In this document: positions 48,739 to 56,514 of the stretch, piece after piece | Layout: each line of letters opens with the position of its first letter | How positions within the stretch are numbered: the stretch's first letter is position 1 | Assembly (NCBI RefSeq): GCF_012524075.1 | Contig: NZ_JAAZUI010000003.1 | Coordinates: 124,001 to 188,000, forward strand | DNA length: 64,000 nucleotides | From: Lutibacter sp. B1 | Lineage (GTDB): Bacteria; Bacteroidota; Bacteroidia; Flavobacteriales; Flavobacteriaceae | Direction: 5' to 3' | The notes under the pieces: generated by a model | Seen by the model: only the letters and a program-made list of their open reading frames with translations | Databases searched by the model: none | Told to the model about the DNA's origin: nothing | Translations under genes and position numbers: made by a program

Positions 48739-48755
48739 TAAATAATCAATTGAAT

Positions 48756-49676
48756 ATGAAAATAATTAAATTAATAATTTTAGGGGTGTTTGCATTAAAT
48801 ATATCATTAATGTACAGTCAGCAAGATCCTCAATATACCCAATACATGTATAATATGCATGTATTAAATCCTGCTTATGCAGGCTCTCAAGGTACTTTAA
48901 GTATAGGTTTATTGGGGAGAACACAATGGGAAGGTATTGATGGTGCTCCTAGAACTATAACCGCAACGATAAATGCTCCAATAGGTAAAAATGTTGGTAT
49001 GGGATTTTCTGTAATTGCTGATGAAATAGGCCCTGTTAAAGAGCAAAATGTATATGCAGATTTTTCTTATACAATAGAAACTTCAGATGAAGGCAGACTT
49101 GCTTTTGGGATTAAGGGAGGATTTACATTTCAAACAATTGATTTTTTAAGATTATCTACAAACCAACAAGATGATCCTTTATTTGCAGAAAATTTAAATG
49201 AAACCTATCCAAATTTTGGAGCCGGTGCTTTTTATTATACTGATGAATTTTATATAGGATTATCAATGCCAAATATGTTAGAAACAAGGCATTTTGAAAA
49301 AAAGAAAGGAATCATAAGTAAAGCCTCTGAGAATATGCACTATTTTTTAACAAGTGGTTATGTATTTGATCTTTCATATGATGTAAAATTAAAACCATCT
49401 GTTATGCTTAAAGCTGTTAGCGGAGCTCCTTTATCTGTTGATGTATCCGCTAATGCATTAATTTACGATGCTTTAGAGTTAGGTTTGTCGTGGAGGGTTG
49501 ATGATTCTGTAAGTGGAATGATTAATTTTTTAATAACAGATAACTTAAGATTAGGCTATGCTTACGATTATACTTTAACAAACCTTGGAGATTTTAATAA
49601 TGGTTCTCATGAAGTGTTTTTATTGTATGATTTAGATTTATCTAGAAGAGATTTAAGATCACCAAGATTCTTTTAA
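48756..49676 (+). CDS. PorP/SprF family type IX secretion protein
   Basis: Outer-membrane beta-barrel protein of 306 residues: signal peptide (1-18, ending MYSQQDPQYTQYMYN), the family start QYTQYMYNMHVLNPAYAGSQ, and a barrel ending in Phe (SRRDLRSPRFF). PorP/SprF proteins help secrete or anchor a partner adhesin with a type B C-terminal domain, the gene directly upstream here. The first ATG (48756) is chosen; an in-frame TTG lies two codons before it. Confidence 0.92.
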   Translation: MKIIKLIILGVFALNISLMYSQQDPQYTQYMYNMHVLNPAYAGSQGTLSIGLLGRTQWEGIDGAPRTITATINAPIGKNVGMGFSVIADEIGPVKEQNVYADFSYTIETSDEGRLAFGIKGGFTFQTIDFLRLSTNQQDDPLFAENLNETYPNFGAGAFYYTDEFYIGLSMPNMLETRHFEKKKGIISKASENMHYFLTSGYVFDLSYDVKLKPSVMLKAVSGAPLSVDVSANALIYDALELGLSWRVDDSVSGMINFLITDNLRLGYAYDYTLTNLGDFNNGSHEVFLLYDLDLSRRDLRSPRFF

Positions 49677-49692
49677 TTAAAATTAACGGATA

Positions 49693-51786
49693 ATGATTAA
49701 AAAAATTACCATAATATTTATTTTCCTTACTGTTTTTATTTCAAAGGCACAGGAGGACAGATATACCATAACGAATCTTAAAATTAATAATAGTTATTCT
49801 AATTTTGGAACTACATTTTATGGAGATGATAAAGTGGTATTTTCAGCACCAAAAAAGAAATCTTATATAATAAGAAATGTTTGGGAAGGAAATAATCAAC
49901 CTTTTTTAGAATTATATATTGGTGATATTCAAGAAAATGGACAATTAGCTAATGTAAAAAAGTTTTCTGATGAAATTAATACACGTTATCACGAAGCTGA
50001 TGTTGCATTTACCAAAGATAAAAAAACGGTTTATTTTTCTAGGAACAATTATTTTGACGGAAAATTTAAAAAGGACTCTACAGGTATTGGTTTAATTCAG
50101 TTATACAGAGCTAAAATAAATAATGAAGGAGATTGGGTAAATATTGAGCCAATGCCTTTTAACAATGACAACTTCTCAACCGGTCACCCTGCTTTAAGTG
50201 CCGATGAAAAAACATTATATTTTATTTCTGATATGCCGGGTGGTTATGGAATAACTGATATATATAAAGCTGAAATTTATAAAGACGGCAGTTTTGGAAA
50301 ACCTGAAAATTTAGGTCCAAAAATAAATACACCTGAAAGAGAAATGTTTGTTTCTATTAGTGGTAACGATGAATTGTATTTTTCTTCAGACGGAAGGAAA
50401 GATGGTTTGGGAGGACTGGATCTATATGTTTCAAAAATTACTAAAGACGGAATAACTGAACCTGAAAATTTAGGAGAACCTATGAATAGTAATAAAGACG
50501 ACTTTTCATTTATTCTGGATTATGAGACCAGAAGAGGCTATTTTTCTTCAAATAGAGCCGGTGGTAAAGGTGATGATGATATTTATACTTTCATACAAAA
50601 TATTCCAATTGAATTTGAGTGTACTCAAAAAGTAGAAGGTTATGTTACCGATGCCAGTACAGCTAAAATTTTACCGGGTGCATTGGTTACGTTATATGAT
50701 GGTTTAGGAAATAAATTAGATAGCATGGTTGTTGGGAATACAGCTAAATACAATTTTAATTTAGATTGTAATAAGTCATACAAAGTTATAGGAACTAAAG
50801 AAGCGTATTTGCCTTACACGAAAGAATTTTATACAGCAGAAGGAGAGGAGCTTAATGTGCCATTAAGTTTAATGCCAAAACCTGCAGAAGAATTTTTACT
50901 GGAAAGAGGAAAATGTATAGTTAAAATTAATGCTATTTATTTTGATTTTGATAAGGCTGATATTAGACCTGATGCCGAAATTGAATTGAATAAAGTTGTG
51001 GATGTAATGAATAAATATCCTGATTTAATTATTGAAGGCGGTTCACATACCGACAGTAGAGGAACTTTTAAATACAATCAAACATTATCATACAGAAGAG
51101 CATTTTCTACAGTTCAATACATTATAGGAAAAGGAATTGATCCAAATCGTATATCTGCTACCGGTTATGGTGAAACTCAATTGGTAAATGGTTGTTCAGA
51201 TGGTGTTAATTGTTCAGAAGAAGAGCATCAGGCCAACAGAAGAACGGAATTTGTTATTGTGAATTATGAAGATATAAAATATAAATATCCTGAAATTTGC
51301 CCAACCAAGGCTATTTCTACCAAAGAACAATTGGAATTAAAACGACTAGAAGAAATTAAGCAAAAACGATTTTTAGAATCATTAAAAACTGAATTTGTAA
51401 CTGCTCATGGTAATTTAATGATAAACATAAACCCAATTTATTTCGATTTAAATTCATCGTATTTTGGAAAAGAAGTTGAAAATGAGTTGAAAAAAGTGGT
51501 TGAAGTGATGACCAGATACCCTGAAATTATTATTGAATGTGGTTCACATACCGATTCTAGAGCCAGCAGTAATTATAATACATGGTTATCTGAACGTAGA
51601 GCTAAAAGAATTGTAGATTATATAATTTCAAAAGGTATTTCTCCAGATAGAATTTACGAAAAAGGCTATGGTGAAACTAACTTAGTAAATAACTGTAAGG
51701 ATGGAGTTAAATGTTCTGATAGCGAACATGAACAAAACCGCAGAACAGAATTTGTTGTAATTAACCCGGAAGTTATTAAGAAATAA
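49693..51786 (+). CDS. OmpA family protein with PD40 repeats and two OmpA domains
   Basis: Outer-membrane-associated protein of 697 residues with signal peptide (1-19), WD40-like PD40 repeats (about 70-290; AKKTVYFSRNNYFDG-type, STGHPALSADEKTLYFISDM), a carboxypeptidase-regulatory-like domain (about 310-375) and two peptidoglycan-binding OmpA domains (about 405-515 and 575-690). Each has the NxxLSxxRAxxV-type core (YRRAFSTVQYIIGKGIDPNR; SERRAKRIVDYIISKGISPD). The duplicated OmpA domain is unusual. It is the third gene of the adhesin operon and probably fixes the secretion machinery to the cell wall (PorE-like). Confidence 0.92.
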   Translation: MIKKITIIFIFLTVFISKAQEDRYTITNLKINNSYSNFGTTFYGDDKVVFSAPKKKSYIIRNVWEGNNQPFLELYIGDIQENGQLANVKKFSDEINTRYHEADVAFTKDKKTVYFSRNNYFDGKFKKDSTGIGLIQLYRAKINNEGDWVNIEPMPFNNDNFSTGHPALSADEKTLYFISDMPGGYGITDIYKAEIYKDGSFGKPENLGPKINTPEREMFVSISGNDELYFSSDGRKDGLGGLDLYVSKITKDGITEPENLGEPMNSNKDDFSFILDYETRRGYFSSNRAGGKGDDDIYTFIQNIPIEFECTQKVEGYVTDASTAKILPGALVTLYDGLGNKLDSMVVGNTAKYNFNLDCNKSYKVIGTKEAYLPYTKEFYTAEGEELNVPLSLMPKPAEEFLLERGKCIVKINAIYFDFDKADIRPDAEIELNKVVDVMNKYPDLIIEGGSHTDSRGTFKYNQTLSYRRAFSTVQYIIGKGIDPNRISATGYGETQLVNGCSDGVNCSEEEHQANRRTEFVIVNYEDIKYKYPEICPTKAISTKEQLELKRLEEIKQKRFLESLKTEFVTAHGNLMININPIYFDLNSSYFGKEVENELKKVVEVMTRYPEIIIECGSHTDSRASSNYNTWLSERRAKRIVDYIISKGISPDRIYEKGYGETNLVNNCKDGVKCSDSEHEQNRRTEFVVINPEVIKK

Positions 51787-51792
51787 AAAAAT

Positions 51793-51875
51793 AAAGAGTT
51801 GTGGAAGAGGGTTTATTCTTCTATAGTAGATATTTTGTGGGGAAATTCTACACTCAAAACCTCACACAACTCTTT
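51793..51875 (+). ncRNA. Candidate structured RNA element, copy 1
   Basis: A perfect 11-base outer stem AAAGAGTTGTG (51793-51803) with CACAACTCTTT (51865-51875) and an inner GAGG/CCTC stem (51807-51810 with 51860-51863) enclose a core shared with copy 2. The core includes TTCTTCTATAGTAGA, TTTTGTGGGGAAATTC and TACACTCAA. A short GTAGA/TCTAC stem lies inside (51826-51830 with 51847-51851). A T-run follows, so it can act as a plus-strand terminator. It starts 7 bases after the ompA-like stop. Confidence 0.6.
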
Positions 51876-51953
51876 TTTTGTTAAAAAAAGGATTTAAATG
51901 TATTAAAAATTAAAATTGAACGTTAATAAAATAATAAGTTTTTTAAATAAAAT

Positions 51954-52038
51954 AAAAGAGTACTAATTGAGGTTCTTTTCTTCTATAGTAGACATTTTGT
52001 GGGGAAATTCTACACTCAATACCTCAATCAACTCTTTT
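51954..52038 (+). ncRNA. Candidate structured RNA element, copy 2
   Basis: The core matches copy 1 with only a few changes over 57 bases (51969-52025 against 51807-51863), but the outer stem sequence is different and still pairs: AAAAGAGT (51954-51961) with ACTCTTTT (52031-52038) and ATTGAGG (51966-51972) with CCTCAAT (52022-52028). A run of seven T follows. Conserved core plus changed but paired stem is the pattern expected of a functional RNA. Confidence 0.6.
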
Positions 52039-52040
52039 TT

Positions 52041-52064
52041 TAATTCTTTTTATAAAAAGAATTA
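52041..52064. repeat. Perfect palindrome after RNA element 2
   Basis: TAATTCTTTTTA and TAAAAAGAATTA form 12-base perfect arms without a spacer, directly after the T-run of copy 2. It may extend its termination signal. Confidence 0.5.
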
Positions 52065-52090
52065 ATGAACGCTATTTTAATAGCAACAAA

Positions 52091-52118
52091 AAAAAACACT
52101 GCATTTGCAGTGTTTTTT
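52091..52118. terminator. Bidirectional terminator between the adhesin operon and sufD
   Basis: AAAAAACACTGCA and TGCAGTGTTTTTT (52091-52103 with 52106-52118) give 13-base arms with A- and T-rich feet. It sits 22 bases beyond the sufD stop and serves both converging transcripts. Confidence 0.85.
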
Positions 52119-52139
52119 AATTTATAGATAAAAAAAGTA

Positions 52140-53468
52140 TTATAGCTCAAAACCTAAATCAACACCTAATTTTTTGGCTATTAATTTGCTAATTCTCTTT
52201 TTTAATTGGGGAATTTTAATTTTGTTGACTACATCATTTCCAAAAGCATAAAGTAATAAGGCTTTAGCTTCTTTTTTAGGTATTCCTCTTGATTGCATAT
52301 AAAATAAAGCACTTTCATCTAATTGTCCAATAGTACAACCGTGAGAACATTTAACATCATCAGCAAAAATCTCTAATTGTGGTTTGGCATTAATTGTAGC
52401 ACCATCATCAATTAAAATAGTATTGTTTTGCTGAAATGCATTTGTTTTTTGTGCTTCTTGTTGTACAATCACTTTACCATTAAAAACTCCTGTAGATTTA
52501 TCGGCATAAATTCCTTTATACAATTCGTGGCTTTCACAATTTGGAAATTTATGGTTAATTAAAGTATGATTATCTACATGTTGTTTTTCATTTAAAATAG
52601 AAACACCATTAAGGTTTGATGTAATATACTCGCCTTCATGGTAAAACTCTAAATTATTTCTGGTTAAATTTCCTCCAAATGAAAAGGTATTAACAGAAGC
52701 TACACTCTGTTGTTTTTGCGAAACAAATGTATTGTCAATTAATGAAGATTTCTCTGTGTCATTTTGAATTTTATAATAATCAACAATAGCTCTTTTATGT
52801 GCAAAAATTTCAGTTACCGAGTTTGTAAAAGCTGTGTTGTTAGATAAATTTTGATGACGTTCAATAATTTGAACATGTGAATTTTCTCCAACAATAACCA
52901 AATTACGTGGTTGCAATAATACCTCTTTTTCACTACCTGTTGAAAAATGAAGAATTTGAATTGGCTTTTGTACAATGGTGTTTTTTGGGATGTTAATAAA
53001 AGCACCTTCTTTAGCAAATGCGGTATTAAGTTCAGCTAAACTATTATTTTCTTTGGCAATTGAATTAAAATAATTATCAATTACCATTTTGTATTTTGGT
53101 CTTGATAAAGCTGATGATAAAACACAAACATCACAATCTTCGTGTGTAGTATCTGATAAAAAAGAACTAAAAACACCATCAATAAAAATTAGTGTGTAAG
53201 ATTCAATTTCATTTATTAAATACTTTTCAATGTATTTAAAACCAATAGTTCTTTCAGTTTGTATTGAAGGGAAAAGACTAAAATCATGTTTTAATAAAGG
53301 TTTTAGACTTGTATATTTCCATTCTTCATCCTTTTTTGTAGGAAATCCTTCCTTCTCAAAATTTTGAATAGCTTTAGCTCTAATTGAATGTACATTTGAA
53401 TCAAGGTCAAAAACACCATTATTTTCAAATGCCAAAAATGAAGAAACTAACTTATCTTTTAATTCCAT
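52140..53468 (-). CDS. sufD: SufD, Fe-S cluster scaffold subunit
   Basis: Protein of 442 residues with the SufBD beta-helix core (about 160-400; HTLINHKFPNCESHELYKGI, then DDVKCSHGCTIGQLDESALF). SufD pairs with SufB and SufC in the SufBC2D complex that builds Fe-S clusters. The conserved Cys-His near DDVKCSHGC is present. It is the last gene of the suf operon, 7 bases after sufC, and is followed by a strong terminator. Confidence 0.94.
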   Translation of the reverse strand: MELKDKLVSSFLAFENNGVFDLDSNVHSIRAKAIQNFEKEGFPTKKDEEWKYTSLKPLLKHDFSLFPSIQTERTIGFKYIEKYLINEIESYTLIFIDGVFSSFLSDTTHEDCDVCVLSSALSRPKYKMVIDNYFNSIAKENNSLAELNTAFAKEGAFINIPKNTIVQKPIQILHFSTGSEKEVLLQPRNLVIVGENSHVQIIERHQNLSNNTAFTNSVTEIFAHKRAIVDYYKIQNDTEKSSLIDNTFVSQKQQSVASVNTFSFGGNLTRNNLEFYHEGEYITSNLNGVSILNEKQHVDNHTLINHKFPNCESHELYKGIYADKSTGVFNGKVIVQQEAQKTNAFQQNNTILIDDGATINAKPQLEIFADDVKCSHGCTIGQLDESALFYMQSRGIPKKEAKALLLYAFGNDVVNKIKIPQLKKRISKLIAKKLGVDLGFEL

Positions 53469-53475
53469 AATAATT

Positions 53476-54213
53476 TTATTTCAACCAGTCGTATCCTTTT
53501 TCTTCTAATTCTAAAGCTAATTCTTTACCTCCGGATTTTACAATTTTACCATTATGTAAAACATGAACAAAATCAGGAATAATATAATCTAATAAACGTT
53601 GGTAATGTGTAATTACTAAAACTGCATTGTCTTTATTTTTTAGTTTGTTAACTCCATTAGCAACCACTTTCAAAGCGTCAATATCTAAACCGGAATCAGT
53701 TTCATCTAAAATTGCCAATTTAGGTTCTAACATTGCCATTTGAAAAATTTCATTACGTTTCTTCTCACCTCCAGAAAATCCCTCGTTTAAAGATCGCGAT
53801 AAAAACTTACGATCAATTTCTAACAAATCTGCTTTTTCACGAATCAATTTCAGTAAATCTTTTGCAGGTAAATCATCCAAACCGTTTGCTTTTCTGGTTT
53901 CGTTTATAGCAGTTTTAATAAAATTGGTAACTGTTACTCCAGGAATTTCAATTGGATATTGGAACGATAAAAAGATACCTTTATGAGCTCTTTCTTCAGG
54001 TGCTAAATCTTCTAAATCTTCACCATTTAAAATTACTGAACCCTCTGTAACTTCATATTCTTCTTTTCCTGCGATAACTGCTGAAAGCGTACTTTTACCG
54101 GAACCATTTGGTCCCATAATTGCGTGAATTTCACCTGCTTTTATTTCGAGATTTATTCCTTTTAAAATCTCCTTATCATTTATACTTGCGTGTAAATTTT
54201 TTACTTGTAACAT
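53476..54213 (-). CDS. sufC: SufC, Fe-S assembly ATPase
   Basis: ABC-type ATPase of 245 residues with Walker A GPNGSGKST, signature FSGGEKKRNEIF, Walker B PKLAILDETDSGLDID and H-loop ITHYQRLLDYI. It powers the SufBC2D scaffold. The upstream spacer to sufB is interrupted by a four-helix-bundle gene and its flanking repeats, so sufC is 448 bases from the sufB stop rather than adjacent. Confidence 0.95.
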   Translation of the reverse strand: MLQVKNLHASINDKEILKGINLEIKAGEIHAIMGPNGSGKSTLSAVIAGKEEYEVTEGSVILNGEDLEDLAPEERAHKGIFLSFQYPIEIPGVTVTNFIKTAINETRKANGLDDLPAKDLLKLIREKADLLEIDRKFLSRSLNEGFSGGEKKRNEIFQMAMLEPKLAILDETDSGLDIDALKVVANGVNKLKNKDNAVLVITHYQRLLDYIIPDFVHVLHNGKIVKSGGKELALELEEKGYDWLK

Positions 54214-54256: not shown

Positions 54257-54613
54257 TTATTTTTTTAAATATTTTATAAACCCACTTATCATTTTTGAAA
54301 TTTCAAGTGTGTCATTTTTTAATTCATTAAAATCATTTTCATTTAAATATTCCAAATCATGAGCTAAATAAAGTTGAGAGCGAACCTCACCAGCCGATGC
54401 TTTTGCAACATTTAAAAAATAAATAAACTCTTTGTCAGAACTTCGTTCAAAACCTTCTGCAATATTTGAACTTATTGAAACAGTAGCTTTTCTAATTTGT
54501 CTGCAAAAGTCAAAATCTTTAGAAAACAAATTGTTATTAGTTTTTACATAAATCAATTTATTTAAGCTTCTTGCTTTTTTCCAACACTCAATATCTTCAA
54601 AAAAACGTATCAT
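54257..54613 (-). CDS. Four-helix-bundle protein (23S rRNA intervening-sequence type) inside the suf operon
   Basis: Intact 118-residue protein of the four-helix-bundle/S23 family, recognised by the motif VSISSNIAEGFERSSDKEFI and the C-terminal LEISKMISGFIKYL. In spirochaetes and others the family is encoded by sequences inserted in 23S rRNA genes; in Bacteroidetes it occurs as free-standing genes of unknown function. It sits between sufB and sufC, flanked by AAGTNTAAAAG-type repeats (54614-54655 upstream, 54222-54256 downstream). The pattern suggests an inserted cassette. It has a paralogue 1.6 kb away that is broken. Confidence 0.85.
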   Translation of the reverse strand: MIRFFEDIECWKKARSLNKLIYVKTNNNLFSKDFDFCRQIRKATVSISSNIAEGFERSSDKEFIYFLNVAKASAGEVRSQLYLAHDLEYLNENDFNELKNDTLEISKMISGFIKYLKK

Positions 54614-56137: not shown

Positions 56138-56514
56138 TTATAAAGTTGAATTTAAATATTTAATAAACCCACTTATTAACTTAGAAACTTCACTTAATTT
56201 ATCTTTTAAATTATTAAATTCTTCAAAATTAATATATTCTAAATTGTAAGCTAAATAAATTTGAGATCTACATTACATTTTCCGGCAGAAGCTTTAGCTA
56301 TAAACAAAAATCGAATAAATTCTTTTGTTGTTTCTCTTTCAAATCCCTCAGCAATATTTGATGAAATTGAAATAGAGGATCTTCTTATTTGAACTCGTAA
56401 TCCGAAATCTTTAGTAAAAGTTGTATTTGTGTTTGTAACGGAATAAATAGTTTTATTTAGTTTTCTTGACTTTTGCCAAGCAATAATATTTTCTAATGAA
56501 TCTAATTTTGCCAT
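56138..56514 (-). pseudogene. Frameshifted second four-helix-bundle gene in the suf operon
   Basis: Paralogue of the gene at 54257 (SISISSNIAEGFERETTKEF). The frame stops early after KASAGKCNVDLKFI. The original C-terminal half remains readable downstream in another frame: RSQIYLAYNLEYINFEEFNN through [15 protein letters not shown], stopping at 56138. The break coincides with a tandem 5-base duplication (ATGTA-ATGTA, about 56268-56277); removing one copy restores an open frame (AGKCRSQIYLAYNLEY). Flanks carry AAGTTTAAAAGT-type repeats. It lies between sufA and sufB. Confidence 0.8.

Follow-up and report, generated by a model that had tools for sequence, protein, structure and literature searches.

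Two tandem hairpin elements behind the last gene of an outer-surface operon in Lutibacter sp. B1 are, judged from sequence, probably divergent members of a lineage-specific family of RNA elements. There is about an even chance that the family as a whole is to be explained as a terminator-like 3′ hairpin that would present a site for a trans-acting factor, with multi-unit versions as possible decoys. In the following, the window is the whole stretch of 64,000 nucleotides that was analysed.

The Element Pair and Its Locus

A repeat finder aligned two copies (51787-51879 and 51949-52041) with 84% identity over 93 nt, 162 nt apart from start to start, and the resemblance stops a few bases past the stems. 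A preliminary description of the window had reported two tandem copies with a nearly identical 57-base core, and this holds: the cores at 51807-51863 and 51969-52025 agree at 52 of 57 positions, with a longest identical run of 26 nt, and a 26-nt core pattern allowing up to 3 mismatches matched twice in the window and never in 100 shuffles. The features of the locus are as follows.

48750-49676, + strand: porP/sprF family gene, upstream of ompA in the operon (checked with Pfam)
49693-51786, + strand: ompA with two OmpA domains, last gene of the operon (checked with Pfam)
51793-51877, + strand: copy 1, hairpin element with U-run, starting 7 nt past the ompA stop codon
51793-51803, + strand: copy 1, 5′ arm of the outer stem, AAAGAGTTGTG
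51865-51875, + strand: copy 1, 3′ arm of the outer stem, CACAACTCTTT, leading into the T-run
51807-51863, + strand: copy 1, predicted second stem GAGG/CCTC at the ends, with the core inside
51826-51851, + strand: copy 1, predicted inner hairpin GTAGA/TCTAC and ATTT/AAAT, loop TGTGGGG
51954-52041, + strand: copy 2, hairpin element with U-run
51954-51961 and 52031-52038, + strand: copy 2, outer stem AAAAGAGT / ACTCTTTT
51966-52028, + strand: copy 2, second stem ATTGAGG (51966-51972) / CCTCAAT (52022-52028), with the core inside
51988-52013, + strand: copy 2, inner hairpin, the core being the same as in copy 1 (core pattern match)
52091-52122, strand unassigned: plain hairpin terminator (AAAAAACACTGCATTTGCAGTGTTTTTT), separate from the elements and lying between them and sufD (by eye)

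The outer arms of copy 1 are separated by 61 nt, and its inner hairpin contains TTGTGGGGA, which is common to the wider family. Both copies end in a T-run, and they lie directly behind the porP-ompA operon, which had been described as a surface-adhesion operon. The sufD gene, named from a reading of its sequence, is convergent to this operon, so that the hairpin pair sits in the gap between them; an ordinary terminator follows the pair anyway. Compared with dinucleotide shuffles, the predicted folds had z-scores of -3.28 (copy 1) and -3.04 (copy 2) on the + strand and of -4.18 and -3.83 on the - strand.

The flanking stems had been said to differ in sequence and yet to pair. The pairing was borne out, but full substitution was not: the outer 3′ arm of copy 2 is nearly unchanged (CAACTCTTT), and the differences lie mainly in the 5′ arm of the outer stem and in the second stem. 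For this reason the two window copies alone provide little compensatory evidence, and the better support for stems that appear substituted but still paired is the wider family rather than the window pair.

Elsewhere in the window, two short frames of the same type (54257-54613 and 56251-56514; ..SISSNIAEGFER..) lie inside the suf gene cluster; they presumably resemble the four-helix-bundle proteins linked to 23S rRNA intervening sequences.

Close Copies

When up to 3 mismatches were allowed, the window core matched at just two places in its own genome (G000), and 2 of the 38 genus genomes contained it. The second positive genome, G004, carries at locus L058 an element behind the orthologous ompA, 68% identical to that of the window; its second stem is GGAGU/ACUCC as against GAGG/CCUC in the window, and the outer stem is identical in both. 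A tree of sufD from 30 of the 38 genomes left the sister relation of G000 and G004 open. In G004 an extra gene with an OmpA-type C-terminus (L058:1741-2847) lies between the element and sufD. A similar gene adjoins sufD in other members of the genus (tblastn) and is absent from the window, where the two elements occupy the gap that holds this gene in G004.

Searches that started from these close copies brought little more. The exact 16-nt window core occurred in 55 stretches of a genome contigs database, none of which had the flanking element. A covariance-type model of the three close copies (model R1; the window pair and that of G004), run against 397 genomes of the family and 38 of the genus, gave 21 further matches that were read besides the three copies, all chance-like. 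The window-core pattern gave one extra match in the 397 family genomes, on a coding gene, and its control gave 4. Phages and viral contigs contained zero matches to the element, and plasmids a single weak one (E 0.8, 79.6% over 51 nt).

The Wider Family

In a survey, 30 ompA loci were inspected by eye, being the best match per genome among the matches listed rather than every ompA gene. A plain hairpin terminator lies behind ompA in about 21 of the 30. Besides the window and G004, an element of the form CTAC[C/A]GTT[G/T]TGGGG..GACGAC was seen behind ompA at L130, L134 (twice), L135 and L136; in three of these elements the enclosing stem is of the GGCAGCC..GGCTGC type and leads into a T-rich run. 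Allowing up to 3 mismatches, the 21-nt core TACTACCGTTGTGGGGACGAC was present in 36 of the 38 genus genomes at 1-8 places each, compared with 3 matches in total for the reversed control.

Collection with up to 4 substitutions led from 94 loci to 150 distinct cores, the neighbours of which define four recurring settings. CAP, thioesterase, OmpA and PorP were verified by Pfam; pdhA, gcvP, YkgJ and the other neighbours were named from sequence reading. Class A elements lie 33-179 nt behind ompA and on its strand. Class B elements have a thioesterase gene on one side and, in many loci, a gene for a CAP-domain lipoprotein on the other. Class C comprises 15 loci between pdhA and gcvP, both on the opposite strand, and 11 of the 15 have two cores. 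Class D loci have 1-6 cores and adjoin a CAP gene in 10 of 11 cases and a YkgJ-like gene in 6 of 11. The standard core also occurs in the genome of the window itself, behind two ompA paralogues (C42 and C150) and at a class B locus (C112). This last locus (L217:1300-1900, reverse strand) contains 4-5 tandem core-like units with varied outer stems.

Beyond the genus the element is rare. A standard 20-mer with up to 2 mismatches matched, in 395 genomes of the order, only G000 and one long open frame (control, 1). A standard 17-mer with up to 1 mismatch was found in 10 of 397 family genomes, namely 3 of the genus, 3 credible ones outside it and 4 with matches in long open frames, in a search whose control gave about 17 matches. 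Of the 394 family genomes sampled outside the genus, 3 thus have credible copies: G149 and G345, which belong to one genus, and G425, which belongs to another. These copies have stems GCAGTCG..CGACTGC or ACAGTTGTAA..TTACAACTGT and a T-rich end, and a gene read from its sequence as MarR-like or CAP-like is near them.

Two further observations concern the CAP-lipoprotein gene. Between the arrays and this gene lies a small frame of about 47-63 aa, oriented opposite to the elements, with the conserved end RIYINTL.P.F.Y.N..G....P.KC.LL. The motif (for example at L192, L195, L217, L230, L263, L264 and L271) was seen in 30 of 89 locus groups, and a CAP gene is present in 22 of the 30; two such frames had no match in Pfam or NCBIfam. 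At six loci (L187, L193, L194, L223, L229 and L275) the CAP-lipoprotein gene is flanked by two elements in direct orientation, an arrangement that resembles a cassette; the two elements are separated by roughly 780-860 nt.

Structure and Strand of the Family

Whether a core is enclosed by a stem was assessed for 149 of the 150 cores (full flanks without N were required). Among exact cores, 67 of 68 are enclosed by a stem better than those from all 20 shuffles of the 3′ flank. Of the 81 inexact cores, 32 have an outer stem that is clear by the same shuffle test, and the class D arrays are mostly without one. An alignment (A2) was then made of 37 out of 44 dereplicated elements, which derive from the 72 of 149 with GCAG or ACAG on the 5′ side and CTGC or CTGT on the 3′ side; 7 truncated or odd elements were removed by hand. 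Its outer stem is 95% paired (n = 37) with two-sided changes at 6 of 10 pairs, a pairing that is partly selected for because four of the pairs lie in the strings by which the rows were chosen; the shuffle-based test is independent of this choice. Over the whole structure there are 42 two-sided cells as against 16.6 in shuffles, and shifting the partner by one column lowers the pairing from 96% to about 32%. UUG/CAA, CCG/CGG, CUG/CAG and CCA/UGG versions of the outer stem can be read directly in the sequences. Around a core that hardly varies, the outer stem changes in sequence, and it encloses roughly 55-60 nt.

The proposal of a structured RNA, with a preserved core inside substituted but paired stems, is therefore supported by stem pairing and covariation in the wider family. 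The expected recurrence after ompA is also seen, in G004 and behind paralogues across the genus. None of the outcomes named beforehand as refuting the proposal turned up: further copies exist, their stems pair, and as to a known repeat or mobile-element end, no Rfam family reached its cut-off, phages and viral contigs gave no match and plasmids one weak match. The notion of a conserved core stands as such but its extent does not, since conservation in the family is strongest over the shorter UACUACC-GUUGUGGGGACGAC rather than over the 57 nt described.

The inner part has two alternative predicted folds, GUUGU-GGGG-ACGAC and CUAC-CGUU-GUGG. In 178 cores, counted under the demand for GT..AC at the two innermost pairs, which themselves prove nothing, the third inner pair is U-G in 97, U-A in 49 and C-G in 22. 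The outermost inner pair is standard in just 134 of the 178, which counts against GUUGU-GGGG-ACGAC. This hairpin is nevertheless favoured as the predicted structure over CUAC-CGUU-GUGG, because its third pair varies yet pairs and because CUAC is missing from the arrays and from the first class B element.

Of 99 elements, 83 have the better fold on the + strand, and G-U pairs number 240 of 2646 on the + strand and 86 of 2405 on the other; both would be expected if + is the RNA strand. As the species compared are related to one another, the P value calculated for this contrast overstates its significance at face value. After the stem, 70 elements have a mean of 5.9 T in 8 positions, compared with 4.9 on the other strand.

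Predicted Transcription

The -7 consensus of flavobacterial promoters is TAnnTTTG. In 7 of 15 class C loci, the exact TATTTTTG, which fits this consensus, lies shortly upstream of the first stem; downstream of the elements comes an ordinary terminator, a hairpin with a T-run. Together, the box and the downstream hairpin suggest that class C is transcribed by itself, as an RNA of roughly 230 nt. All 22 class B loci shown have a further element, with CGUGGGGACGAC, upstream of the standard one, and class B would hence be multi-unit. In the genome of the window TATATTTG precedes this upstream element; in the other 21 loci the exact -7 box is absent from the stretch shown. The + strand of classes B and C carries no annotated transcript, and we infer transcription and termination of the elements from these signals.

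The Window Pair as a Probable Member of the Family

Several features connect the window pair with the family. In both copies the outer stem is paired and a U-run comes after it. Their sole remaining piece of the standard core is UUGUGGGGA, which lies 48 nt past the ompA stop codon (57 nt in G004), a class A placement; of the 37 standard cores located no more than 150 nt from an ompA stop codon, 27 lie at 39-64 nt. AGUUGU/ACAACU of the window outer stem is also present in standard elements. In genome G021, an ompA that is 68% identical to that of the window over residues 200-696 is followed by a near-standard element; against membership, no element was seen by eye behind the orthologous ompA of G009 and G013.

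Other features also speak against membership. The core UACUACCGUUGUGGGGACGAC, with 3 mismatches allowed, matched four places in G000 and none in the window, and the inner part of the window copies, GUGGGGAA, disrupts the GGGG-loop hairpin. A family covariance model built without the window copies (model R2) missed both under default filters. With filters off, copy 1 was a weak match, the top one of 30 in 50000-54000 (17.0 bits, E 0.022 in 4 kb), and copy 2 was unmatched up to E 10. In G004 the model gave 17.7 bits, second to a chance-like match of 17.9 bits. The function of the window copies may have been altered or lost since their divergence.

Possible Function and Alternative Explanations

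A standard element would be a long hairpin, whose outer stem and U-run stand where relatives carry a plain intrinsic terminator. The interior of the stem would display a near-invariant module, UACUACC followed by the GGGG-loop hairpin GUUGU-GGGG-ACGAC, which is most likely recognised by a single trans-acting factor, with an RNA-binding protein as the probable candidate. A site of this kind would be expected to show what is seen here: a core that stays constant, a stem that is free to change but paired, a small number of recurring sites, positions in 3′ UTRs and multi-unit loci. In 3′ UTRs the module may mark, protect or regulate mRNAs of surface proteins, and the multi-unit transcripts could be a regulatory RNA or a decoy for the same factor. 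A more elaborate version is a decoy-type network in which one RNA-binding protein recognises UACUACC-GGGG modules at the 3′ ends of surface operons and is titrated by the multi-unit RNAs, the small protein and the CAP lipoprotein maybe belonging to the circuit; this is only a tentative possibility. The explanation by an RNA-binding protein is favoured, with middling confidence, over four others.

The elements might instead be base-pairing sRNAs, with the conserved UACUACCGUUGUGGGG as a seed for target mRNAs and no dedicated binding protein. The conserved part is indeed short and largely exposed in the predicted fold, and class C resembles a free-standing gene. Nevertheless, we regard this as rather unlikely: the third inner pair, in its U-G, U-A and C-G forms, points to a hairpin rather than a seed, and sites complementary to the window core number 55 and 71 in G000 and G004 compared with 72 and 74 for the control, no excess in a count that covers the window core rather than the standard one and leaves short seeds beyond its reach. 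It is somewhat less probable still that the elements are elaborate intrinsic terminators only, perhaps bidirectional, with the core as an inherited passenger. A stem and U-run where relatives have plain terminators would be accounted for in this way, but a passenger would not remain near-invariant while the stem changes, the arrays retain the core without the stem, and the window copies and class C have an ordinary terminator downstream anyway.

The palindromic, intergenic, tandem and multi-copy nature of the elements, and the six loci where a CAP gene lies between two direct-orientation elements, would also suit a repeat at the DNA level (REP-like, MITE-like or a recombination site), spreading or being recognised as folded single-stranded DNA. 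This explanation is improbable, since positive genomes have 1-8 copies at recurring loci, whereas REPs are high-copy in the available text on them (PMC3733652), since the concentration of G-U pairs on one strand fits RNA, and since phages and viral contigs gave no match and plasmids one weak match. What is conserved could finally be a short peptide frame (..SIV.ILWGN.T..) instead of an RNA element, as the frame is open, with the core in phase with the ompA stop codon, in all three close copies. However, the differences between copies 1 and 2 number 6, 6 and 6 at codon positions 1, 2 and 3, and those from G004 number 9, 6 and 11, spread over all positions. A peptide search of 38 genomes listed 9 of them at E up to 10, and the 8 loci read besides the three copies were chance-like. 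With the differences falling on all codon positions and the peptide sequence not kept in the wider family, this reading was rejected as very improbable.

RNA-based control in Bacteroidota is poorly understood. If the RNA-binding-protein explanation applies, a near-invariant module repeated at outer-surface operons and multi-unit loci would be a bait for such a factor, and the element would show a terminator stem that bears a conserved recognition module in its loop.

Comparison with Known Systems

The motif had been described as unrecognised, and this agrees with Rfam: neither the window nor any of eight element loci contains a match to a family of Rfam 15, Flavo-1 included, at its gathering cut-off, three more element loci gave no match up to E 0.1, and nothing credible appeared in L058 at loose E-values. 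The best match in the window at loose E-values, BSnc120, has 26 bits against a cut-off of 114 and falls on the plain terminator (52061-52135), not on the elements; it was rejected. In the available text of papers on flavobacterial structured RNAs, T9SS small RNAs, REPs and CsrA of Bacteroidetes (PMC3733652, PMC9723704, PMC7366714, PMC9029176, PMC2864571) there is no description of the element, though an earlier one is possible, and the string GTTGTGGGGAC occurs only in papers that, from their available portions, were judged unrelated. Obvious homologues of Hfq and ProQ are noted as absent from Bacteroides in the accessible part of one of these papers (PMC7366714). The family is thus apparently undescribed so far.

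Flavo-1 (RF01705) and other Bacteroidetes motifs in Rfam are likewise candidate structured RNAs of flavobacteria, but none of them matched the window or the eight element loci at its cut-off. The GUCCY-hairpin, entered for Bacteroidetes as not in Rfam in the table available from PMC2864571, has a name that may recall GUCCCC on the reverse strand of the core, a comparison of name and table entry. Closer in form are REP palindromes of the GTAG and CGTC families, which are short, intergenic and often tandem, CGTC REPs being known from Bacteroidetes according to the available text of PMC3733652. The elements are likewise short intergenic palindromes that are often tandem, but instead of being dispersed in high copy they number 1-8 per positive genome, at recurring loci, and they have an outer stem that is long and variable in sequence, with G-U pairs specific to one strand.

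In decoy RNAs of the CsrB/RsmZ type, several hairpins with G-rich loops occur in one RNA and similar sites occur in mRNAs. Loci of classes B, C and D contain, as read from their sequences, several GGGG hairpins and would, if transcribed as one RNA, resemble CsrB (RF00018) and RsmZ in this respect. They have no Rfam match, the GGGG loop of the element is set in GUUGU/ACGAC with a fixed UACUACC before it, and GGA is not wholly in the loop. Intrinsic terminators share with the element a stem that is directly followed by a U-run and lies behind operons; in place of their short loop, however, the stem of the element encloses roughly 55-60 nt with a near-invariant module.
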